From: a virus
Virus record (IMG/VR): IMGVR_UViG_3300003323_000394
Location: 1-41,967 of that record
Reading direction: 5' to 3' (one strand)
DNA: 41,967 bases
Every line of letters starts with the position of its first letter. Position 1 is the first letter of the stretch. Positions 1,046-41,967 of the stretch are shown piece after piece. The notes beneath the pieces were generated by a model. It ran no database searches, was not told where the DNA came from, and worked only from the letters and a program-made list of their open reading frames with translations. Position numbers and translations under genes: made by a program.

Positions 1046-1642
1046 ATGAAGCTCTACACTTGTTCCGAGGTGGCCAAGCTGCTCGGCGTCGAGGCGCAGG
1101 CCATCAGCTACCACCAGCGCGTCGGGCATCTCCCGCGCGGGTCGGTCAAGGTCGGGAAGCGCACCTGCTACACGGAGGCGGACATCGACAGGCTCCGCGA
1201 CTTCTTCGGCCTGACGCCAGCCCAGAAGCGCTCGGCGGCGAGCCTCTACTCCATTGTCCAAGCTGCTCGCGTCCTTGGCGTGGGCGATGCCCTGCTCACC
1301 TACCGGATCGACCGGGGCCAACTGCCACGCCCGCAGATCAAGAAGGGGGCGAGGTGGTACTACGACGACGCGGGCTTGGCCGAGCTTCGCCAGCAGATCG
1401 AGGCCAGCCCACCGAACTCGGCCAGATCGAACCCGTTCGAGCACGAAGGCTACCTGAACGTGAAGCAGGCGGCGGACTGGATGGGGATGCCCTCGATCAC
1501 GTTGCAGACGTGGTTGGACAAGGAGCGGGTGCCGCAGCCGACGCACGACATCGGCGGGGTGTCTTATTGGACGAGAGACGAGGTGCGGGCCATCAGGAAG
1601 GCGAACCGCGACTACTTCCTGAAGCGGCTGAAGCTGCTGTAG
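1046..1642 (+). CDS. Triple MerR/excisionase-type helix-turn-helix protein
   Basis: This 198-residue protein is built from three tandem DNA-binding modules of about 55 residues, each opening with a helix-turn-helix and closing with a wing. They begin near residues 4 (YTCSEVAKLLGV), 68 (YSIVQAARVLGV) and 136 (LNVKQAADWMGM), and each ends in a basic or aromatic wing strand followed by an acidic helix. MerR and excisionase-like proteins normally carry one module; three in a row suggest binding to a multi-site operator or a DNA-bending role. It is the first gene after a divergent region with a 13-bp inverted repeat, so it is a candidate lysogeny regulator or recombination directionality factor. 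Its exact role is inference. The RBS is weak (TAGGAC just before ATG). Confidence 0.8.
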   Translation: MKLYTCSEVAKLLGVEAQAISYHQRVGHLPRGSVKVGKRTCYTEADIDRLRDFFGLTPAQKRSAASLYSIVQAARVLGVGDALLTYRIDRGQLPRPQIKKGARWYYDDAGLAELRQQIEASPPNSARSNPFEHEGYLNVKQAADWMGMPSITLQTWLDKERVPQPTHDIGGVSYWTRDEVRAIRKANRDYFLKRLKLL

Positions 1643-1649
1643 ATACTGC

Positions 1650-1958
1650 GTGCGCTACATCGAACCTGACATCTTGAAGACGATGATGCTGGAGGCCCGC
1701 GACCGGGGCGTCGGCGACGAGCTTCTGCGCGCCGTGGGCCAGATCATCAGCGGCGTCTGGTGGAGGTACGGCCAAAGGTGCGACCGCGACGACTTCAGCC
1801 AGAACTGCTGGGTCGTCTTCATGAAGGCGGTGGAGCAGTATGATGGCGAGAGCAACGCCTTCTGCTACCTCACGTCCATCTTCAGGCGCGAGGCGGCGGT
1901 GCTGTGGAGGGCCGAGCAGAGGCACGCTCATGAAGCGATCCCGTGCTCCCTTCTGTGA
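1650..1958 (+). CDS. Phage sigma factor-like protein (T4 gp55-like)
   Basis: A 102-residue protein with the sigma region 2 signature: RDDFSQNCWVVF (about 46-57), then YDGESNAFCYLTSIFRRE (about 64-81) and a basic end. The arrangement D-D-F-x-Q...W...F...YD...NAF.YL resembles the small late sigma factors of T4-like phages (gp55) and cyanophages, which lack region 4 and read only a -10-type box. It starts at GTG, eight bases after the preceding stop. I infer that it directs host RNA polymerase to the CTACATA boxes found before late genes here. The homology call is fairly confident; the promoter link is untested. Its 3' end overlaps the antisense HNH gene by 31 bases. Confidence 0.7.
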   Translation: MRYIEPDILKTMMLEARDRGVGDELLRAVGQIISGVWWRYGQRCDRDDFSQNCWVVFMKAVEQYDGESNAFCYLTSIFRREAAVLWRAEQRHAHEAIPCSLL

Positions 1959-5197: not shown

Positions 5198-5443
5198 TCA
5201 CGCTGTAAACGCCCCGCCGAAGTGAAGGTCGATTTTCTTCTGGAGATCCTCCAGCGCCGCCTGCTTCGTCTCGCCCAGCCCAACGAAGCTCCCTCGCCGT
5301 GCAAGCCACTGCTCGCCCCGGTCCTCAAGCTGCAACGGCAGGCCCTCGACTGCAAAACGGCGCTCCACCATCGCGTCGAGTTTCTCCTTGTTCTCGCGCA
5401 TGTGCTCAACGAGCTTGTCCATGTAGTCGTCGCGGTCGTCCAT
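5198..5443 (-). CDS. Small HicB-like-fold protein (putative)
   Basis: An 81-residue protein. The start at 5443 (MDDRDDYMDK) has AAAGGGGG six bases upstream; the longer form from 5467 would begin inside a TACAAT box. An acidic helix leads into a short beta part and the pattern GSFVGLGETKQAALEDLQKKI, like the strand-turn-helix of HicB-type antitoxins (GxGxTxxEAxxxL). No HicA toxin is nearby, so I would not call it an antitoxin. The N-terminus of the ParB-like protein at 7725 has the same pattern. It is flanked by minus-strand terminators on both sides and so is probably its own transcription unit. Confidence 0.6.
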   Translation of the reverse strand: MDDRDDYMDKLVEHMRENKEKLDAMVERRFAVEGLPLQLEDRGEQWLARRGSFVGLGETKQAALEDLQKKIDLHFGGAFTA

Positions 5444-5531: not shown

Positions 5532-5765
5532 TTAGTTGTCCGACTCCTTCAGGACATTCAGGGCATCCAAGGTTTCCCCTGCTTCCTTGGCCGCTGCCTC
5601 GAATCGAGCCAGCAGGTTGAGGACTCGGCGGATGGCGTTGATGTCCTTCATGACTTCCGCCTGAGTCGCTGGTGCCATCGCCTCCAGTGTTGCGATGTCA
5701 CTGATGCTCGCCCCCATCCTCCAGAGCAGGGCTCGCACCACGATGAAGGTGTCCTTTTCTGTCAC
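5532..5765 (-). CDS. Unknown small helical protein, 77 aa
   Basis: A helical protein with no recognised family; helices run about 20-60 and a Leu-rich segment (RRVLNLLARFEAAAKEAG) could oligomerise. I chose the GTG at 5765 because GGAGG lies eight bases before it; GTG at 5771 is also possible, and a GTG at 5828 would begin almost at the promoter start site. The minus-strand promoter TTGACT/TATACT (5860-5833) with its GTTAWAC repeats drives it. As the only gene facing left from the divergent control region 5829-6120, it is a repressor-type candidate by position only, since no clear helix-turn-helix is visible. Confidence 0.6.
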   Translation of the reverse strand: MTEKDTFIVVRALLWRMGASISDIATLEAMAPATQAEVMKDINAIRRVLNLLARFEAAAKEAGETLDALNVLKESDN

Positions 5766-5832: not shown

Positions 5833-5860
5833 AGTATAACCGTTTAACAGAAAGAGTCAA
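5833..5860 (-). promoter_or_regulatory. Sigma-70 promoter with GTTAWACN operator (leftward)
   Basis: On the minus strand TTGACT (5860-5855), 16 bases, then TATACT (5838-5833). The tandem 8-bp repeats GTTAAACG-GTTATACT (5848-5833) overlap the -10 box. It reads toward the gene at 5765. Confidence 0.75.
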
Positions 5861-5897
5861 CAGCCAACACCCTTTTTCTGTAAGAATTTTGTGGCCG

Positions 5898-5923
5898 TCT
5901 TAAGGAATCCGATCTTAAGGAAT
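5898..5923. promoter_or_regulatory. Direct repeat TCTTAAGGAAT, putative operator
   Basis: TCTTAAGGAAT occurs at 5898-5908 and again at 5913-5923, a 15-base period, midway between the divergent promoters at 5833 and 5939. This fits a two-site operator for a regulator acting on both directions. Confidence 0.5.
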
Positions 5924-5938
5924 TTTCTGCACACCCAC

Positions 5939-5970
5939 TTGTCTTCTTCAGTTAAACCGTTATACTGTAT
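5939..5970 (+). promoter_or_regulatory. Sigma-70 promoter with GTTAWACN operator (rightward)
   Basis: TTGTCT (5939-5944), 16 bases, TATACT (5961-5966). GTTAAACCGTTATACTGTAT (5951-5970) is repeated exactly at 7658-7677. The transcript has a leader of about 150 bases before 6121, with a hairpin at 6063-6092 (GGGCAG/CTGCCC plus GGTG/CACC) and no clear gene. Confidence 0.8.
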
Positions 5971-6120
5971 GTGTGCAGAAGATCTTTGACAACGCGGTGC
6001 CCGATGCCCCCGAGGGCGGTGTGCGGCAGGTTCCGAGCACACCAAGGGGATCAAACGAGAACGGGCAGGCGGTGCTTGCAACACCCCTGCCCCGGCCAAC
6101 GCTAACGAGGAGCGTTGACA

Positions 6121-6771
6121 GTGACCATTCAACACAACCTGCTGGGACAAGGCAACACGAAGTTGGGCGAGTGCATCTTCCACTTCAGCATCCCGGCATG
6201 GGAGACGTGTCCGGGCCGCTCTGCGGCGTGCGAAGTCTGCTACGCCATGCAAGGACGCTACCGCACCTACACGGTGCAGGATGCCCTCCAGAGGGCTTAC
6301 GACGCCAGCCAGCACGACGACTTCGCCCATCGCATGATCAGGGAGGTTCATCGCCGCTGGTGTCAGGTCGTGAGGATTCACGTTGCCGGTGACTTCTACT
6401 CGGTGGACTACGCCTGCAAGTGGCTGGAGATCGTGCGGCGGTGCCCCGACACGATCTTCTATGCCTACACGCGAAGCTGGCGCGTCGAGGACATCCGCCC
6501 CGTCCTCGAAGAAATGGCCCGGCTGGAGAACTTCCGCATGTGGTTCTCGGCGGACAGCGATACCGGCCAGCCGCCTTGCGTGCCCGAAGTGAGGGTCGCG
6601 TGGTTGATGCAGGATGCAGCCGAGCCCATCGAGGACGCCGACCTGATCTTCCGCGACAAGCCGCTGCGGCAGGAGAAGACTCGACGGATCGGGTTGACGC
6701 TGGTGTGCCCCGTGGAGAACGGCAGCGACACCTACACCGACTGCGGCATCTGCAAGTTCTGCTGGAAGTGA
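6121..6771 (+). CDS. Gp88-family protein
   Basis: A 216-residue protein. The N-terminus NTKLGECIFHFSIPAWETCPG, then ACEVCYAMQGRY (36-47), matches the Gene-product-88 family known from mycobacteriophages, where NxKxG, slPAxxTCPG and CYA motifs are diagnostic. Cysteines at 30, 37 and 40 and a Cys-rich C-terminus (CPVEN...DCGICKFCWK) look like a metal or iron-sulfur site. Biochemical function is unknown to me. GTG at 6121 is preferred because GAGGAG lies eight bases upstream, better than TTG at 6115. It is the first gene after the rightward promoter at 5939-5966. Confidence 0.8.
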   Translation: MTIQHNLLGQGNTKLGECIFHFSIPAWETCPGRSAACEVCYAMQGRYRTYTVQDALQRAYDASQHDDFAHRMIREVHRRWCQVVRIHVAGDFYSVDYACKWLEIVRRCPDTIFYAYTRSWRVEDIRPVLEEMARLENFRMWFSADSDTGQPPCVPEVRVAWLMQDAAEPIEDADLIFRDKPLRQEKTRRIGLTLVCPVENGSDTYTDCGICKFCWK

Positions 6772-6815
6772 TCAACAAGGGCACGGATGCCCTTCCCCTC
6801 TCAAGGAGTTCCCAC

Positions 6816-7013
6816 ATGCTGCAAGAACACAAGGACCGGCTGGAGTGGATCGTGGATGCCGCGAGCGTAGGCGAGGTGCTGATGGCTCTGGTGGAAATCT
6901 GCAACCTCAAGGCCGAACACGTCCAAGAGCACTGGCACGACAGCAACATGGCGGCAGGCTGGCGGGCCGACGCTCGCACCATCGAGAACATCATCAACAA
7001 GGTGGAGAACTGA
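6816..7013 (+). CDS. Unknown small protein, 65 aa
   Basis: A 65-residue helical protein with start ATG at 6816 set by CAAGGAG (6802-6808). Longer in-frame extensions overlap the Gp88 gene and are rejected. The sequence has an amphipathic N-terminal helix, a His/Trp-rich middle (EHVQEHWHDSNMAAGW) and a helical end. No family recognised. It belongs to the Gp88 operon, two bases before the next gene. Confidence 0.65.
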   Translation: MLQEHKDRLEWIVDAASVGEVLMALVEICNLKAEHVQEHWHDSNMAAGWRADARTIENIINKVEN

Positions 7014-7015
7014 CC

Positions 7016-7219
7016 ATGCGGAAGCACATGACCGACGCCGAGGCCCAACTTGCCGAGGCCCTCTCCAACCTGCTCACCACCGACTTCGAGGCCCAAACCA
7101 TCGTGAACTTCACGGACGGCTACAACGGCGGGATCGAGGTGCTGATCGTCGAACTCGATGAGGAGCGCCGCCTGTCGTGGTCGTGGCCGACCGTGGCCAA
7201 GGCGCTCGCCAGCAAGTGA
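7016..7219 (+). CDS. Unknown small protein, 67 aa
   Basis: A 67-residue protein starting two bases after the previous stop. Helix 5-25 is followed by beta strands (TIVNF..., EVLIVELDE) and a Trp-rich turn (RRLSWSWPTV), a compact alpha/beta fold. Function not recognised. A strong hairpin (7226-7250) follows. Confidence 0.65.
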   Translation: MRKHMTDAEAQLAEALSNLLTTDFEAQTIVNFTDGYNGGIEVLIVELDEERRLSWSWPTVAKALASK

Positions 7220-7225
7220 GCTTCA

Positions 7226-7250
7226 AAGGGGGACTAGCCCAGTCCCCCTT
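7226..7250. terminator. Hairpin overlapping the -35 box of the next promoter
   Basis: AAGGGGGACT (7226-7235) and AGTCCCCCTT (7241-7250) form a perfect 10-bp stem with a 5-base loop. There is no T-run after it. Its last two bases are the first two of the TTGACC -35 box at 7249. Confidence 0.65.
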
Positions 7251-7285
7251 GACCTTTCGCCCCAAATTGTTATACAGTTAAACCG
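7249..7285 (+). promoter_or_regulatory. Sigma-70 promoter with GTTAWACN operator before the RHH gene
   Basis: TTGACC (7249-7254), 16 bases, TATACA (7271-7276). The tandem 8-bp repeat is GTTATACA-GTTAAACC (7269-7284), with the two half-sites in the reverse order from the other three promoters. The gene downstream encodes a ribbon-helix-helix protein, so autoregulation is plausible. Confidence 0.75.
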
Positions 7286-7308
7286 ACACAACCCGAAAGG
7301 AGGGGGCG

Positions 7309-7542
7309 ATGGCAGCGAAGAAAACAGGCAGGCCCCAGAAGCCAGAAGACGAGAAGCTCAAGCTCCGGGCCGTGAAACTCGACCCCGAACTAGACGCCCA
7401 GCTAGAAGCCGCAGCCTACTGGACCCGCAGGTCGATGTCCGACATCATGAAGCGCGGCATCGAGCTTGCCGTTGAGGAACTTGCTCGCAAGAAAAACGGT
7501 GGCAAGCCCTTCGACCCGAAGCCGCCAGAAGACGAGGACTGA
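7309..7542 (+). CDS. Ribbon-helix-helix (CopG/Arc-type) DNA-binding protein
   Basis: A 77-residue protein with a basic N-terminal arm, a single beta strand (KLRAVKLDPEL, about 18-28) and two helices (ELDAQLEAAAYWT and SMSDIMKRGIELAVEEL). This is the ribbon-helix-helix fold, which binds as a dimer with the strand in the major groove; relatives such as CopG and omega bind short tandem repeats. Four phage promoters, including its own, carry tandem 8-bp GTTAWACN repeats over the -10 box, so it is the best candidate for their repressor. That link is inference. AAGGAGG lies about six bases before ATG. The acidic C-terminal tail (PKPPEDED) may mimic DNA or bind a partner. Confidence 0.8.
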   Translation: MAAKKTGRPQKPEDEKLKLRAVKLDPELDAQLEAAAYWTRRSMSDIMKRGIELAVEELARKKNGGKPFDPKPPEDED

Positions 7543-7549
7543 CACCAGC

Positions 7550-7570
7550 AGGGCCGCAAATCGCGGCCCT
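7550..7570 (+). terminator. Hairpin after the RHH gene
   Basis: AGGGCCGC (7550-7557) and GCGGCCCT (7563-7570) form a perfect 8-bp stem with a 5-base loop shortly after the stop. Only a weak T-rich stretch (TGCCATTTCC) follows. Confidence 0.55.
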
Positions 7571-7645
7571 TGCCATTTCCGGCCCGCCTCGTTCCGCTGC
7601 AACTCCTTTCTCCCACAACCTCTTGAGCGAAAACGTGGAGCAGTA

Positions 7646-7677
7646 TTGACACCTACGGTTAAACCGTTATACTGTAT
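7646..7677 (+). promoter_or_regulatory. Sigma-70 promoter with GTTAWACN operator before the ParB-like gene
   Basis: A perfect TTGACA (7646-7651), 16 bases, TATACT (7668-7673). The 20-mer GTTAAACCGTTATACTGTAT (7658-7677) is identical to 5951-5970. CGGTTAAACCG (7656-7666) is also a palindrome around its central base. Confidence 0.8.
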
Positions 7678-7724: not shown

Positions 7725-8156
7725 ATGCAAGCCAGCTTCACCAGCCACTACGCAGGCCCCGACGACCTGCACTGGACCTGCGCTCTCACCGACGACGGCA
7801 TCGACTTCATCGGCGAAGGCTGCACCAAGGCTGAGGCCCTCCAAGATGCCAAGGACCGCCTCATCATGTGGAGGTTCCAGTCCATGATCCAGATCGACAT
7901 CGAGAAGCTGCTCCCCGGCCCGCCGAGGCCCCACGACAACCTCTCGAAGCTCGCCGCCAGCATCGCCATTGACGGCCTCCACGAGCCGCTCAAGGTCGAG
8001 GCCCTGCCCGATGGCCTCTACCAGATCGTCTCTGGCTCTCGCCGCTTCAGGGCGATCATGGTGCTCTACGAGGCCGACGCCCCGGTGCTCCTCGCCAACC
8101 GCGTCGGACTGGCAAGGACCGTGTTCAAGTGGATTCCCTGTGAGGTGCTCCAATGA
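7725..8156 (+). CDS. ParB-like nuclease-domain protein with HicB-like N-terminus
   Basis: A 143-residue protein with two parts. Residues 57-118 form a ParB/sulfiredoxin-like domain: IDIEKLLP start, a helix (DNLSKLAASIAIDGLHEPLKV) and the box GSRRFRA (104-110, GxRRxRA). Stand-alone domains of this kind occur in many phages near methyltransferases and DNA-modification genes. Residues 1-48 resemble a HicB-type strand-helix unit (GEGCTKAEALQDAK). No centromere-like array is seen, so a partition role is not supported. It overlaps the next gene by four bases, giving coupling. The promoter at 7646-7673 drives it. Confidence 0.75.
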   Translation: MQASFTSHYAGPDDLHWTCALTDDGIDFIGEGCTKAEALQDAKDRLIMWRFQSMIQIDIEKLLPGPPRPHDNLSKLAASIAIDGLHEPLKVEALPDGLYQIVSGSRRFRAIMVLYEADAPVLLANRVGLARTVFKWIPCEVLQ

Positions 8157-8755
8157 CTACCCTCCACGCCAAGCTCATGCAAGCCCAGCAGAAGCCCCAG
8201 AAGGCCCAGCCAAGGCCCGCGAAGAAAGAAGACGACCCGAAGCCCATCGAGACTAAACGCGGCGTCAAGTGGCTGTTCAAGACGCCCGGTTACGGCATCG
8301 TCCAGATCACCGACAACGGCAGGCCGCTGGCCTTCATGGTGCTGCCCATGCCCAGTGACAAGGCCCGCGTCTTCGAGATGACCCGGCTGAACGGCAGCGG
8401 CAACACACACCGCTTCGTCGTGACGCTCGGCCAGTCGTGCGGCTGCTGCCAGCAGACTTGCCGACACCTGCCCGCCCTCGCCGCTCTGGACCGTCAAGGC
8501 AAACTCGACTTCGAGCCCGCGAGGAAGGAGCACGGCCCGCGCTACGCCGAGGTGCCACTCAAGCAGGCCCTCGGCACCGGCTGGGCCACCAGCAAGGCGG
8601 GCAAGAAGTACCCGGTGGCTGTGTTGAAGAAGGTGGAGGGATACCGCGTGATGGTGGCCGATCTCAAGAACGGCACCGCCCACAACGACTACGGCGCGGC
8701 TGGCTACTTCGTCGAGGAGGGCGAGGTGGCCGACATCAGGTGGTTTCGTGGGTGA
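8153..8755 (+). CDS. SWIM-like zinc-finger protein
   Basis: A 200-residue protein with a basic, Gln/Pro/Lys-rich N-terminal tail (about 1-36) and a globular remainder. Residues 96-105 read CGCCQQTCRH, which fits the SWIM zinc finger CxCx(n)CxH used for DNA or protein binding. The rest is unrecognised. It is coupled to the ParB-like gene (ATGA overlap) and followed by a methyltransferase-like gene, which suggests a DNA-modification or replication-associated trio. The function is not known. Confidence 0.7.
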   Translation: MTTLHAKLMQAQQKPQKAQPRPAKKEDDPKPIETKRGVKWLFKTPGYGIVQITDNGRPLAFMVLPMPSDKARVFEMTRLNGSGNTHRFVVTLGQSCGCCQQTCRHLPALAALDRQGKLDFEPARKEHGPRYAEVPLKQALGTGWATSKAGKKYPVAVLKKVEGYRVMVADLKNGTAHNDYGAAGYFVEEGEVADIRWFRG

Positions 8756-8763
8756 TTTGCTTT

Positions 8764-8802
8764 ATTGGGCACCCAGAGAGCCGTACACTCTGGGTGCCCA
8801 AT
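8764..8802. promoter_or_regulatory. 15-bp perfect hairpin before the methyltransferase gene
   Basis: ATTGGGCACCCAGAG (8764-8778) pairs with CTCTGGGTGCCCAAT (8788-8802) around a 9-base loop. No T-run follows on the plus strand. It fills most of the gap between 8755 and 8819, so it may attenuate, protect the mRNA end or serve as an operator. Confidence 0.7.
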
Positions 8803-8818
8803 TGCCACGGAGACGACC

Positions 8819-9376
8819 ATGAAGGCCAGCACCAAGAAGAGCCGCGCCAAGAACTACTGGCACTTCCGCAAGGACTCGCCCATCAGGCCCGAGAACCCTT
8901 TCGATTTCTACGCGACCCCTGCCTCCATCACCGAGGCCCTCCTCGCCCGCGAACGGTTCCGGGCCGAGATCCTCGAACCTGCCAGTGGTGACGGCGCGAT
9001 GGCCGAGGTGCTCCGCGCTCACGGCTACGAGGTTGACGAGGCCGACATCAGGCGTGGCCAGAACTTCCTCGACCGCAAAGAGCCCTGCTGGAACATCGTC
9101 ACCAACCCGCCCTATGGCAAGAGCATGGCCGAGGTGTTCGTCAGGCACGCCCTCAAGCTGGCCTTCCTCAAGGTGGCCATGCTCTTGCCGATGTACTTCT
9201 TGGAGGGGGTGTGCCGCCACGACATCTTCAACAACCCGGCCTTCCCGGTCAAGGCCACCTACGTCTTTTCGAGGAGGGCCAAGTTCGGCGAGGAAGGCCA
9301 CACCTCTCCGTTCGGCACCGTCTGGGTCGTGTGGGAGAGGAGGCACCAAGGACCGGCCACGTTCAGCGTGATCTGA
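8819..9376 (+). CDS. DNA adenine methyltransferase-like protein
   Basis: A 185-residue class I methyltransferase-like protein. DFYATP (29-34) opens the domain, EPASGDGAM (53-61) is the SAM-binding motif I, and TNPPYG (95-100) is the catalytic (D/N)PPY motif of N6-adenine or N4-cytosine methylases. It is short, with no obvious target-recognition domain, as in many phage orphan methylases. I infer a protective or regulatory DNA methylase; no restriction gene is adjacent. The ATG at 8819 is preferred over 8765, which would read through the hairpin; GGAG precedes it at about seven bases. Confidence 0.8.
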   Translation: MKASTKKSRAKNYWHFRKDSPIRPENPFDFYATPASITEALLARERFRAEILEPASGDGAMAEVLRAHGYEVDEADIRRGQNFLDRKEPCWNIVTNPPYGKSMAEVFVRHALKLAFLKVAMLLPMYFLEGVCRHDIFNNPAFPVKATYVFSRRAKFGEEGHTSPFGTVWVVWERRHQGPATFSVI

Positions 9377-10279: not shown

Positions 10280-10326
10280 ATTTACCCCTCGTTTTACCCC
10301 CGGAGTTTACCCCCGGATTACCCCTT
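10280..10326. repeat. Left-arm integrase-type sites (ATTTACCCCCGG repeats)
   Basis: Four adjacent copies of a 12-bp motif lie here: 10280-10291 (ATTTACCCCTCG), 10292-10303 (TTTTACCCCCGG), 10305-10316 (GTTTACCCCCGG) and a degenerate one at 10317-10326. Similar copies flank the other side of the tRNA segment. They fit arm-type binding sites of a tyrosine integrase. Confidence 0.75.
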
Positions 10327-10354
10327 CCTAAGTCCGTGCGGCTCTTGCCTTTAA

Positions 10355-10403
10355 GGGGTGGGTGACCGGATTTGAACCGGCGACATCCAGATCCACAGTC
10401 TGA
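10355..10403 (-). other. attP: attP core: 3' half of a tRNA-His(GTG) gene
   Basis: On the minus strand this segment reads as the anticodon arm (stem TCAGA/TCTGG with one G-T pair, loop CTGTGGA, anticodon GTG at 10396-10394), the T arm with TTCAAAT loop and the acceptor strand CACCCAC plus C. The 5' half (acceptor strand GTGGGTG and a D arm) is missing upstream, so it is not a working tRNA. A phage attP core that matches the 3' end of a host tRNA restores that gene on integration; this fits exactly, with the integrase 98 bases away. Confidence 0.85.
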
Positions 10404-10438
10404 GTTGCTAAGCGTTTTCTAGCTTGTTTTTCGGGTGT

Positions 10439-10493
10439 CCGGGGGTAAAATGTACTTGAAATCGAACTGATTTACCCCCGGATTTACCCCCGA
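10439..10493. repeat. Right-arm integrase-type sites
   Basis: Three copies of the 12-bp motif: inverted at 10439-10450 (exact match to 10292-10303), then direct at 10470-10481 and 10482-10493, ending seven bases before the integrase ATG. Bound integrase here could also repress its own gene. Confidence 0.75.
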
Positions 10494-10500
10494 GGCAACC

Positions 10501-11808
10501 ATGCCCCGCAGCTACGAGATGAGTTGGGAAGGCGCTCCGAAGTACCGCTGGGTCAAGATGTTCAAGGGCACGCGCTACCGCGTCACCTGCGAAGAACTTG
10601 GAGCGATGGTCTGGACCGCCGAGGGTTCCTACAGGCTGGCGAACGAGTGGTGGCGGAAGAAGCTGGCCGAACTGACCCAGCCGCACCCCACGACCGCCAC
10701 GCTCGACCGCCACGAGATCGGCGACTTGAAGGAAGTGATCGCTCGTGGTGAGGCCGCGAAGGCGATGCTCACCTTGAAGACGGAAGACCCCGGCCTGCGC
10801 GAAACCTTCTACACGCCCAAGCTACACGACCACATCGTCGCCTCGGTGGCCGCGAAGCTCGAACCCGAGATGGTGCCGCCCGACCGCGCCCTCTCGAAGC
10901 TCGCCGAGCGGTTCCTCGCCGTCGAGCAGGCCCGTGGCAAGGCCGCTGGCACCTTCGGCGATCTGGCCTACTACGTCCGCAAGATCCAGACCGACTGCCC
11001 CCTGCTGCGGTCGCTCGACGCCAGCACCATCAACGAGGCCACGGTCACGGACTTCTACACTTGGCTGCGCAACCAGAGCGGTCAGGTGCCAGCCGTCCAG
11101 AAGAAGCTCTGGGGCTACTTCCGCCGTCTGGTCCGGTTTGTGGCTGGTCAACGGCTGTGCCCCATCCCCGTCAACCTCGACGACCGGATCTTCTCGTTCG
11201 AGGCCACCGCCAAGAAGATCAAGACCTACTCCGTCGAGAAGGTCCGGGCCATGCTCGCCAATCTGCCCGACCGCCTGAAGCTCTACGCCCATCTGGCCCT
11301 CAACTGCGGGATGTACGGCGTGGACATGGCCATGCTCCGTCACGAGGAACTGGCGGACGGGCGGATCACCCGGAAGAGGACCAAGACGCGCAACGCCGAG
11401 GACGTGCCTACCGTGGAATACGTCCTCTGGCCCGAGACGCTGGCGCTGCTGGCGAAGTTCCCCAGCCAGCACTCGGAGTACGTTCTGACCAGTGCCACCG
11501 GGACCCCGCTCTGGCGGGACGAGATCAGGGGCGGCAAGAGGAGCAAGACCGACCTCGTGCATGTCCAGTGGAACCGTGGCCGAGGCGAGGGCAGGGCCAC
11601 CAAGCCGCCGATCCCGCTGAAGGCCCTGCGGTCGGTCGCCGCGACCATCCTCGAAGGCCACAAGGACTACGGGCGGTTCACGTCGCTCTTCCTCGGCCAC
11701 TCGCCCGCCAGCATCAAGGACAAGCATTACGCCGCGCCGCCGCAGGCCCTTTTCGACGAGGCGATCCTCTGGCTTCGAGGGCAGATCCTCGGGCACGAGG
11801 CTGCTTGA
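10501..11808 (+). CDS. int: Tyrosine recombinase / integrase
   Basis: A 435-residue site-specific recombinase. An N-terminal arm-binding region is followed by a SAM-like core-binding domain (about 130-225) and a catalytic domain (about 245-430). Visible catalytic residues are Arg377 (LKALRSVAAT), His400 (LGHSP) and the nucleophile Tyr410 (KDKHY). The usual first Arg (TGLRxxEL) is replaced: residues 268-275 read NCGMYGVD, with Tyr272 where Arg is expected. This NCGM/NCGF pattern, with LWPET (309-313), is one I associate with planctomycete integrases. It joins attP (10355-10403) to a host tRNA-His gene. No clear ribosome site is seen; arm sites run almost to the ATG. Confidence 0.9.
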   Translation: MPRSYEMSWEGAPKYRWVKMFKGTRYRVTCEELGAMVWTAEGSYRLANEWWRKKLAELTQPHPTTATLDRHEIGDLKEVIARGEAAKAMLTLKTEDPGLRETFYTPKLHDHIVASVAAKLEPEMVPPDRALSKLAERFLAVEQARGKAAGTFGDLAYYVRKIQTDCPLLRSLDASTINEATVTDFYTWLRNQSGQVPAVQKKLWGYFRRLVRFVAGQRLCPIPVNLDDRIFSFEATAKKIKTYSVEKVRAMLANLPDRLKLYAHLALNCGMYGVDMAMLRHEELADGRITRKRTKTRNAEDVPTVEYVLWPETLALLAKFPSQHSEYVLTSATGTPLWRDEIRGGKRSKTDLVHVQWNRGRGEGRATKPPIPLKALRSVAATILEGHKDYGRFTSLFLGHSPASIKDKHYAAPPQALFDEAILWLRGQILGHEAA

Positions 11809-11914: not shown

Positions 11915-11947
11915 GGGGTGGGTTTTTCGACGAAGAAGGGGGATGCC

Positions 11948-12595
11948 GTGAACTTGGTGAACGAGCTACAGGTCAGCGCCGAGAATGACGAGGTGTTGAC
12001 CGTCCTCCGCAAGACGATGCGGCTCGCGTCGAAGCTCAGCCGCGACGACATCTCGGCGTGGTTGCTCGCCGAGCAAAACGGCTACCCTCGCGGTGATGCC
12101 GTTCCTGAGTATCGGCGAGTGCGCGGGCGGCTTGCGATTAACGTGATGGGTTACATCCCTGCCGGTTTCGGGATGCTCATGACGGGCGCGCAGGATCTTC
12201 CGGGGAGCAACTTCAACCCGGAGGTTCCAGTCATCGACTCGATCAGCACTGTCCAAACATGGATCGCCGACATGACCGATGGAAGTGAACTGAGCCTTCC
12301 GATTGATCGCAACTCCGACGTGGATCGCTTTCATCGTCGGCTCATTTCCCCCGACTTCAGGCACCAAGTTTCCTTCCTCCTCCATCTGAACCCCGCCCAA
12401 ATCCGAGCTATCCCCGAGCGGATCAAGGACAAGGTGTTGGAGTGGGCGCTCGCTCTGGAGCGCGCCGGGGTGACAGGCGAGGGGATGACGTTCAGCGCGG
12501 AGGAGAAGAAACTCGCCCACTCCGTCACGTTCAACATCAGCAATAGTCTCATCGAGCAACTGAGCAACTCGGGGATCAACCACAAGGGTAACTGA
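11948..12595 (+). CDS. AbiTii-domain protein, paralogue 1
   Basis: A 215-residue protein starting at GTG 11948, aligned with the start of its paralogue and preceded by AAGGGGG. The N-terminus has the AbiTii pattern: LVNELQ, a helix with LRKTMRLASKL, then ISAWLLAEQNGYP and VPEYRRVRGRL (about 46-57). AbiTii domains are tied to abortive-infection systems, but their activity is not established to my knowledge. Residues about 148-177 and 1-40 are nearly identical to paralogue 2, while the centre differs. The C-terminus ends in VTFNISNSLIEQLSNSG, a motif also found at the N-terminus of the gene at 13258. It begins a three-gene operon just after the integrase. Confidence 0.8.
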   Translation: MNLVNELQVSAENDEVLTVLRKTMRLASKLSRDDISAWLLAEQNGYPRGDAVPEYRRVRGRLAINVMGYIPAGFGMLMTGAQDLPGSNFNPEVPVIDSISTVQTWIADMTDGSELSLPIDRNSDVDRFHRRLISPDFRHQVSFLLHLNPAQIRAIPERIKDKVLEWALALERAGVTGEGMTFSAEEKKLAHSVTFNISNSLIEQLSNSGINHKGN

Positions 12596-12607
12596 GAAGG
12601 GCACGGC

Positions 12608-13258
12608 ATGAACCTCGTGAACGAGCTTCAGGTTAGCGCCGAGAATGACGACGTGCTGACCGTCCTTCGCAAGACGATGCGGCTCGCGTCGAAGCTCAAC
12701 CGCGACGACATCTCGGCATGGCTCCAAGCTGAACAGACTGGATACCCCGAGAACAGGAATGTCCCCGATTACCGGATGATCGGGGTGACGTTCGCGTACA
12801 ACACCAACGGACCTGTCCCCGATGGATATGGCCGCACCATGAACGGTATCCAATCCCTGCCGTCCCCTGATGCTGATGCCCGCGTGCCAATTGGCGCTCC
12901 GCTGTCTGCTGTGATGACGTGGATTGCGGATCTCGACAAGGGTGGGCACGGGATCTATCAGACCGTCGATGAGCGAATGGATCGGGTTCTTCGATCCATG
13001 TATCATTTTCATCCGATGTTCGCCCACCAGATCAGCCTCTTGCTTCGCTTGAACGACTCGCAGGTGAAGGCCATCCCCGACCGGATCAAGGACAAGGTGT
13101 TGGAGTGGGCGCTCGCTCTGGAGCGCGCTGGGGTGACGGGCGATGGAATGACGTTCTCCGTCAAGGACAAGCAGATCGCCCAGACGGTCACGTTCAACCT
13201 CACCAACTGCCACGTTGAGCAACTGAGCAACTCGGGGACCAACTCGAAGGGGAGCTAA
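12608..13258 (+). CDS. AbiTii-domain protein, paralogue 2
   Basis: A 216-residue paralogue of the preceding protein. The first 40 or so residues and the stretch IPDRIKDKVLEWALALERAGVTG are almost unchanged, also at DNA level, whereas residues about 45-145 share only scattered positions (GYP, WIAD). The C-terminus carries the same tail, VTFNLTNCHVEQLSNSG. Twelve bases separate it from the upstream gene, and it overlaps the next start by one base, so all three are co-translated. The mosaic pattern suggests duplication followed by divergence of a specificity region or partial gene conversion. Confidence 0.8.
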   Translation: MNLVNELQVSAENDDVLTVLRKTMRLASKLNRDDISAWLQAEQTGYPENRNVPDYRMIGVTFAYNTNGPVPDGYGRTMNGIQSLPSPDADARVPIGAPLSAVMTWIADLDKGGHGIYQTVDERMDRVLRSMYHFHPMFAHQISLLLRLNDSQVKAIPDRIKDKVLEWALALERAGVTGDGMTFSVKDKQIAQTVTFNLTNCHVEQLSNSGTNSKGS

Positions 13259-13941
13259 TGGCCACGTTCAACTTCAACAACTCGACGGTCGAACAGGTCA
13301 CGGACAAGGGCACGAACATCAAGCTCGTCAGCAGCAGCGGCAACAACGCCGTGACGCAGGACGGGGACATCACGCAGACGACGGGCGGCACGTCGGCGAC
13401 GAAGGACCGACTGACCATCGACGACATTGACAGCTTCTCCAAGGTGCGCGAGGTGGCCCCGGCCACCGTCGCGCCCTTGCTGAAGGGCGGCTACTTGGAC
13501 TTGGCTGAGGACGTGGTACAGAAGGCGCTGGAAGAGATCCTCACCGTCCCCCTTACCAAGAAGGACTGGGGCGGGGAGGTGAACGATCTGTACACGGCGA
13601 ACGTCGTCGTGGATGGAGTCCGAAGGCCGACCGCCTTTCTCCTCAAGGGGAACGGCCTGAAGAAAATGAAGATGGAGATCAAGAACTGCGGCAAGAACGG
13701 AGATCAGATCGTGCGGCTGTTCCAGAGCCCGGCCAATTTTTTTGTCATCCAATTCGTCGGCAACATCTCCGAGGGCGTCATCAGCCACGCGCAAAATGAA
13801 CTCGCGGCGCTGAAGGCGAAAGGACAGGAGGGCCAGTTCCTCATCCTCGACGGGCAGGATACGGCCCGCCTGATGTACGCCTACGGGAAACTGACGCTGC
13901 CCGCGTCCCCGCCCGCCCTGCCAGCGCCGCCCACCACCTGA
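13258..13941 (+). CDS. AbiTii-associated partner protein, 227 aa
   Basis: A 227-residue protein overlapping the AbiTii paralogue stop (TAATG). Its N-terminus, TFNFNNSTVEQVTDKGTN (3-20), repeats the C-terminal motif of both AbiTii proteins. A Thr/Ser/Gly-rich stretch follows to about 48. The remainder is alpha/beta, with GVRRPTAFLLKG (about 119-130), KNGDQIVRLF (about 144-153) and FLILDGQDTARLMYAYG (about 196-212). The strand ending in LLKG and the later blocks recall restriction-endonuclease-like folds, but canonical PD-(D/E)xK acids are not all visible, so nuclease activity is only a possibility. It is the likely effector or partner of the AbiTii pair. A terminator follows at 13987. Confidence 0.65.
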   Translation: MATFNFNNSTVEQVTDKGTNIKLVSSSGNNAVTQDGDITQTTGGTSATKDRLTIDDIDSFSKVREVAPATVAPLLKGGYLDLAEDVVQKALEEILTVPLTKKDWGGEVNDLYTANVVVDGVRRPTAFLLKGNGLKKMKMEIKNCGKNGDQIVRLFQSPANFFVIQFVGNISEGVISHAQNELAALKAKGQEGQFLILDGQDTARLMYAYGKLTLPASPPALPAPPTT

Positions 13942-13986
13942 GAAGCCGCCGAGGCCCAGATGAACCGGGCTCGACCTGACCAGCCC

Positions 13987-14020
13987 AGAGGCCATCGTGG
14001 AAAGTCCGATGGCCTCTTCT
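13987..14020 (+). terminator. Terminator of the AbiTii cassette
   Basis: AGAGGCCATCG (13987-13997) and CGATGGCCTCT (14007-14017) form a perfect 11-bp stem with a 9-base loop, followed by the T-rich TCTACTTCC. Confidence 0.8.
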
Positions 14021-14044
14021 ACTTCCTCAAGCCGCGAACCGGCC

Positions 14045-14072
14045 TTGCTTTCAGCCTGTCAAGGTGGATAAT
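14045..14072 (+). promoter_or_regulatory. Promoter of the AbiJ-like gene
   Basis: TTGCTT (14045-14050), 16 bases, GATAAT (14067-14072). The spacing equals that of the other sigma-70 promoters in this genome. It follows directly on the terminator of the AbiTii cassette, so the AbiJ-like gene is a separate moron. Confidence 0.6.
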
Positions 14073-14112
14073 GGGGACAGTATTCGCCCGTCCACGCAGG
14101 GAGACTCGCCCG

Positions 14113-14985
14113 ATGAGCCTGAACTTCTCGCAGCGTATGGGCTTGGAGCCCGCTACGCGGCCTTTCCAGAAGAACTCGATGGACCGCGCCCTGCGGACGA
14201 GCCTCTGGAATGCCTACCTTCTGCATTGCCATGAGACGAATGAGGCGTTCGTCCGGGTGCTGTGGATCGAGTTCTTGAAGTGGCCGTGGCCGGTGGACGA
14301 CATCTCCCTCCTCCTGAACGGGTATCAAAAGCGACTGGAGGAGTGGATTCTCGACCCGCAGAAGGCACCTTGGAACAAGGTGTACGAGTTCGTGGAGTTT
14401 GCCGCCGATTTGAAGGACAGGGCGAATCCCCCGCCACGCGTGAGAAGAAAGAAGTCGCCCACCGCTTCCCACGCCTTCATCGCGGCCTGCAACGACATCC
14501 TCGAACGTGAATGCTCGGCCTACCGCTTCGTCGGCAAGATCCTCGTGCCGCTGACCAGCGAGCAGGAAATCGAGGCCGTCCACAAGGCCGCGTCGATGGA
14601 CGACGACCTGCTGCGTCCGGTGTCCATGCACATGCAGCAGGCCGTGAAGCTCCTGTCGGACAGGAAGCAACCAGACTACCGCAACTCGATGAAGGAGTCG
14701 ATCTCTGCCGTAGAGGCCATCTGCAAGATCATCGCCGAGAAGGAGAAGGTGACCCTCGGCCCGGCCCTCGACGCCGTGCTGGCCAAGCTCGACCTGCATA
14801 CCAGCCTGCACCAAGGCTTCAAGGCAATCTACGGCTACACCAGCGACCACCACGGCATCCGCCACGGCCTGAAGGACGACGCCGAGCCCGAGGCCGAAGA
14901 CGCCACGCTCATGCTGGTCATGTGCTCGGGGTTCGTGAACTACCTCGTCGAGAAGGCAAGGAAGAAGGGGCTGCTGGCGACCTGA
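14113..14985 (+). CDS. AbiJ_NTD4 / HEPN-type abortive-infection protein
   Basis: A 290-residue protein with start ATG 14113; longer in-frame starts read through the promoter. The N-terminus (LNFSQRMGLEP...NSMDRALRTSLWNAY) fits the AbiJ N-terminal domain 4, whose members begin FSxRxGL and have LRxxLWN. The C-terminal half (about 195-285) has PDYRNSMKESISAVEAICKII and later HGIRHGLKDDAEP, resembling the helical HEPN-like C-terminus of these proteins; HEPN domains often act as RNases through R-x4-6-H, and RHG is a candidate. It is a single-gene abortive-infection candidate. GGGAG precedes the start at ten bases. Confidence 0.75.
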   Translation: MSLNFSQRMGLEPATRPFQKNSMDRALRTSLWNAYLLHCHETNEAFVRVLWIEFLKWPWPVDDISLLLNGYQKRLEEWILDPQKAPWNKVYEFVEFAADLKDRANPPPRVRRKKSPTASHAFIAACNDILERECSAYRFVGKILVPLTSEQEIEAVHKAASMDDDLLRPVSMHMQQAVKLLSDRKQPDYRNSMKESISAVEAICKIIAEKEKVTLGPALDAVLAKLDLHTSLHQGFKAIYGYTSDHHGIRHGLKDDAEPEAEDATLMLVMCSGFVNYLVEKARKKGLLAT

Positions 14986-15647: not shown

Positions 15648-15654
15648 CTACCTA
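15648..15654 (+). promoter_or_regulatory. Late promoter box CTACCTA
   Basis: CTACCTA lies exactly five bases before ATG 15660. It shares box and spacing with the boxes at 15906, 22825, 27221, 30040 and 41150 (minus). Confidence 0.65.
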
Positions 15655-41942: not shown

Positions 41943-41967
41943 GACCGGGCGAAGATGGCTTGGGCGA
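41943..41967. repeat. Terminal direct repeat, copy 2 (circle junction)
   Basis: Exact 25-base repeat of positions 1-25; see the first copy. Confidence 0.85.

Follow-up and report, generated by a model that had tools for sequence, protein, structure and literature searches.

The window analysed here is an entire IMG/VR virus record (IMGVR_UViG_3300003323_000394) of 41,967 bases. It carries phage genes for terminase, portal, head and tape-measure proteins, together with an integrase gene (10501-11808, plus strand; phrog_1). A 25-bp direct repeat is found at its two ends (1-25 and 41943-41967), by which the record is probably complete or circular; an assembly overlap is also possible. The integrase gene adjoins an attP region (10281-10492) that contains the 3' half of tRNA-His(GTG) on the minus strand, flanked by arm repeats of TTTACCCC(CGG). 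Since the genome has both an integrase and an attP on the 3' half of tRNA-His, the phage is temperate. Integrase homologues occur in 12 of 95 Gemmataceae genomes, the best Gemmataceae relative matching at 44% over its full length. Moreover, the attP core matches Gemmataceae tRNA-His genes at 45 of 48 bases, and a relative (48%) of an AbiTii protein of the phage was found in a Gemmataceae metagenome-assembled genome. Judging from these sequence matches, the host is probably a member of the Gemmataceae or a near, Gemmata-like bacterium.

Four promoters, referred to as P1 to P4, lie between positions 5833 and 7673. P1 (5833-5860, minus strand, TTGACT-16-TATACT) points leftward and P2 (5939-5966, plus strand, TTGTCT-16-TATACT) diverges from it; P3 (7249-7283, TTGACC-16-TATACA) and P4 (7646-7673, TTGACA-16-TATACT) are also on the plus strand. 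The first gene behind P1 (5532-5771, minus strand) encodes a 79-residue protein with no convincing family, and is followed by a gene for an 81-residue protein (5198-5443, minus strand) for which no family was found. P2 precedes a gene for a GP88-family protein (6121-6771, plus strand; PF17338, E 8e-40) and two small plus-strand genes without assigned function (6816-7013 and 7016-7219). P3 lies upstream of a gene for a 77-residue ribbon-helix-helix (RHH) protein (7309-7542, plus strand). This gene forms a single-gene unit between two hairpins on the plus strand: a 10-bp hairpin at 7226-7250, directly before and overlapping the -35 box of P3, which is a possible terminator or insulator, and a hairpin at 7548-7573 (fold z -3.8), which is a possible terminator. 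Finally, P4 is followed by a gene for a 143-residue ParB_N-domain protein (7725-8156, plus strand), overlapped in the same operon by a gene for a 200-residue protein without assigned function (8153-8755, plus strand). Further on, a 15-bp hairpin with a 9-nt loop (8764-8802, fold z -6.6) stands just ahead of a DNA methyltransferase gene at 8819. A search against Rfam gave no match.

Across the 41,967 bases of the genome there are eight copies of the heptamer GTTAWAC. They are without exception arranged head to tail in four pairs, with a period of 8 bp. These pairs are located at 5834-5848 within P1 (minus strand, GTTAAACGGTTATAC; GTTAAAC at 5842-5848, GTTATAC at 5834-5840), at 5951-5965 within P2 (plus strand, GTTAAACCGTTATAC; units at 5951-5957 and 5959-5965), at 7269-7283 within P3 (plus strand, GTTATACAGTTAAAC; GTTATAC at 7269-7275, GTTAAAC at 7277-7283, near the start point) and at 7658-7672 within P4 (plus strand, GTTAAACCGTTATAC; units at 7658-7664 and 7666-7672). 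The sequence-only reading had described four TTGnCn-16-TATACW promoters, each with two tandem 8-bp units of which one is the -10 box itself, and all four were recovered at the positions that it gave. It had also reported that the order of the units is swapped at the 7249 promoter with the period kept, as is indeed seen at 7269-7283, and that 5951 and 7658 share an identical 20-mer (GTTAAACCGTTATACTGTAT); the two copies match exactly.

Single GTTAWAC units are expected 1.3 times, and the observed count of eight was reached by no dinucleotide shuffle. The exact tandem is present four times in the genome, with no further site at up to two mismatches, where dinucleotide shuffles predict 0.04 sites; exact tandems appeared in none of 300 shuffles. 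A motif-blind test was weaker, since 4 of 200 shuffles (about 2%) also produced a family of four tandem 7-mers with a period of 8. However, all four pairs occupy the same place on a promoter, and this removes the doubt about the tandem family. Thus, the presence of four tandem GTTAWAC pairs on promoters is confirmed as a real feature of this genome.

The pairs and the promoters are tightly interlocked. In all four promoters, a 16-nt spacer separates TTGnCn from TATACW, whose TATAC falls inside one of the units. The unit at the -10 box is GTTATAC in every case, and the second unit is always GTTAAAC. The latter lies 8 bp upstream of the -10 unit, in the spacer, at three of the four promoters, but 8 bp downstream of it at P3. 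Such a shift of 16 bp is not what one would expect of an element read by sigma factor, whereas a repressor site can shift in this way, and the unit is therefore better explained as an operator than as a promoter element. A genome-wide sigma-70 scan that was blind to the units placed P4 first, P1 second and P2 third, with P3 lower. These three top-ranking promoters share 79-83% of their sequence over 36-38 bp, and a single cassette may have given rise to all of them. Their likeness could also mean that a strong promoter has merely been duplicated, with GTTAAAC as a passenger and no regulator involved. P3, however, is no copy of the cassette, and yet both units are present there at the 8-bp period and in register with the promoter, though in swapped order; we judge simple duplication to be very unlikely. 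P3 is the sole independent arrangement and carries the operator argument. Altogether, shared operators over the four promoters are well supported. No operator is present at the candidate promoters upstream of the integrase gene (10424) and of the AbiTii genes (11886), and these genes could therefore stay on in a lysogen.

Two other repeats were noticed around P1 and P2. Between these promoters, the 11-bp direct repeat TCTTAAGGAAT occurs in two copies 15 bp apart (5898-5923), with no other exact copy anywhere in the genome; the pair is a possible site for a second regulator. A 13-bp inverted repeat (ATTTTCTGCACAC / GTGTGCAGAAGAT, 5922-5983) flanks P2 and its operator, and possibly serves a second regulator as well.

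We then consider which protein could bind the tandem pairs. The protein encoded at 7309 scores 24.9 bits against Pfam RHH_1 (cutoff 20.5) over residues 22-56, which bears out the earlier claim of an RHH protein encoded behind one such promoter, here P3. It also gave weak matches to PHROG repressor families (E 0.0017-0.004), the best family being annotated as "transcriptional repressor". A single-sequence structure model of the monomer was poor, with one long helix, no strand and a pLDDT of 73.5, and no structural match was found for it. The RHH gene's own promoter is among the several that share the tandem sites. The unit GTTAAAC can be written GTT-A-AAC and is nearly identical to its own reverse complement, as would be expected for the site of a symmetrical dimer. 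The RHH protein appears to be the likeliest binder of the operators.

The same near-symmetry means that direct and inverted repeats cannot be fully separated by sequence alone, and the 15-mer is also legible as an inverted repeat. The sites might then be operators of another phage protein, such as an HTH dimer on the imperfect palindrome GTTWWACnGTWWAAC. Further DNA-binding proteins are indeed encoded in the genome. The best candidate among them would be a protein that carries three consecutive HTH domains of the MerR type (1046-1642, plus strand), or else an unrecognised small protein, for example one encoded behind P1; a small HTH-like protein (2308-2535) is another possible binder. However, the promoter strand shows GTTAWAC in each of the eight units, and the direct reading needs one variable position where the inverted one needs three. 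The triple MerR-type protein is encoded 4 kb away and resembles the excisionase/activator family, whereas the RHH gene itself sits behind one of the sites. Binding by such another protein is thus conceivable, but we hold it to be unlikely.

The closest relatives found for the 7309 protein raise a different question. They are RHH proteins encoded beside ParA in Gemmataceae elements (loci L099-L103), with 32-40% identity over the aligned region and a common AAYW motif. Together with the ParB_N gene behind P4, these relatives could suggest that the repeats act chiefly as centromere (parS) sites and that the RHH protein is a centromere binder of the ParG/omega type. The relatives differ from the phage protein in having ParA adjacent and a longer N-terminus with the stretch RSTIKNDPFxxVIP, which the phage protein lacks, and no GTTAWAC tandem was present in the Gemmataceae loci retrieved for them. 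A tblastn search with a Gemmataceae ParA over the whole 41,967-base record found no ParA in the phage, which has an integrase and an attP. Moreover, each phage site has two units, whereas activation of ParA by the plasmid protein omega takes four or more repeats in an unbroken row (PMC9499535). With no ParA found, the RSTIKNDPFxxVIP stretch absent and fewer units than omega requires, a role in repression is a better fit than one in partition. A main role as centromere sites seems to us highly improbable.

Several known RHH regulators can be compared with the phage protein. MetJ is an RHH repressor that binds tandem 8-bp near-palindromic boxes and requires a co-repressor, and CopG is an RHH repressor of its own gene; unlike the phage protein, both are host or plasmid regulators and recognize other sequences. 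CopG was one of two analogues, with omega, that the sequence-only reading had named for binding to tandem repeats, and this part of the claim stood less well, its operator being less alike. Arc and Mnt of the temperate phage P22 are also RHH repressors, and P22 has a separate CI-like repressor in addition. They share the fold and the temperate phage setting with the 7309 protein, but their operators are different. Arc and Mnt are mentioned in PMC10516654.

The analogy with omega proved good. Omega (ParB) of plasmid pSM19035 binds tandem repeats of 7 bp at a number of promoters, its own being one of them, with one dimer per unit (PMC9499535). As is proposed for the phage, its RHH dimers sit on short tandem units that overlap several promoters, the protein's own among them. 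The two differ in that omega has non-palindromic 7-bp units in arrays of 7-10, a ParA partner and a function in partition, whereas the phage has two units per site, an 8-bp period and no ParA. F55 of the archaeal virus SSV1 is an RHH regulator of lysogeny whose tandem repeats lie in early promoters and in the promoter of the F55 gene itself (PMC5569661; PMC9608457). Both F55 and the 7309 protein are small viral RHH proteins with tandem repeats at several promoters, including their own, in a virus with a persistent state. However, the SSV1 repeat is ATAGATAGAGT, and binding and repression have been demonstrated for F55 and are what we infer for the phage protein; the likeness is one of layout. 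F55 (PMC5569661) and MetJ appear to be better analogues than CopG, and the design as a whole resembles the already known systems of SSV1 F55 and plasmid omega.

Taken together, the repeats, their positions on the promoters, the RHH gene and the temperate genome make it reasonably probable that the tandem pairs serve as operators for a single repressor, the 7309 RHH protein being the strongest candidate, and that this repressor would block host sigma-70 RNA polymerase at the four promoters. The presence of other DNA-binding proteins in the phage, notably the triple MerR-type protein, speaks against this assignment, as do the strand missing from the structure model, the possible origin of three promoters from one cassette, the modest motif-blind result and the failure to find a related phage, in which conservation would give an operator its usual support. 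That the operators are real and well placed is clear; that the RHH protein is their repressor is likely but unproven. One RHH dimer would bind each near-palindromic GTT-A-AAC unit, so that two dimers lie side by side. The repressor would cover the -10 box at all four promoters and, at the RHH gene, the start point too, and would thereby repress its own gene in a negative feedback. Its other targets would be the leftward genes at 5532 and 5198 and the operons that begin with GP88 and ParB_N. During lysogeny, the repressor would keep these genes silent. After a new infection, they would be the first to be expressed, until the RHH protein has built up and turns them off. Binding, cooperativity, repression and timing by the 7309 protein are elements of this scheme that we infer. 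If the repressor is indeed the RHH protein, the phage has a defined switch in which the four operators are known, and bacterial viruses have a counterpart to the archaeal F55 circuit. A limited literature search, which yielded general papers only, found no description of a gene control circuit in temperate phages that infect Gemmataceae or other Planctomycetota.

The four promoters are presumed to be early. This is consistent with their being the best host-type promoters, with the temperate nature of the phage and with a different start motif at some virion genes. This motif, CTACMTA, stands exactly 5 nt before the ATG of six genes without an obvious Shine-Dalgarno sequence, several of them just behind terminator hairpins. 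Six matches have the 5-nt spacing, against 0-1 at other spacings. Sites lie at 15648, 15906, 22825, 27221, 30040 and 41150 (minus strand), among others, and the motif looks like a leaderless promoter class. A 102-residue protein (1650-1958, plus strand) matches Sigma-70 region 2 with a score of 24.5 against a Pfam cutoff of 24, and could read the CTACMTA promoters. If these promoters are leaderless and read with a phage sigma-like protein, the four sigma-70 promoters would represent a host-read set that is expressed first. A broader scenario can be imagined, in which an RHH protein of plasmid partition, having lost its ParA, took over the part of a CI-like protein as lysogeny repressor in a Planctomycetota phage, with all host-type early promoters under the tandem operator and the others leaderless and served by the phage sigma-like protein. 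This scenario is speculative and we rate it as doubtful.

Related phages with the same repeats were also sought, and none was found in the collections covered. Neither the RHH, GP88, TerL and integrase sequences nor two operator patterns identified a relative in IMG/VR, and the RHH sequence had no convincing match among phages, plasmids, PDB entries and GTDB genomes. The GP88 alignment search returned 80 loci; the operator was absent from all of them, and their matches to other genes of the phage were scattered and weak. Gemmataceae integrase loci had no other phage gene in common with the window. An unrelated phage fragment from the RHH alignment search (L138) was set aside, as its RHH gene lies inside an operon and has no comparable site. 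Finally, a group of plus-strand defence genes was observed behind the integrase gene (11918-14985), comprising two AbiTii paralogues (59% alike), a PDC-S32/AbiJ_NTD4 protein and a small gene between.
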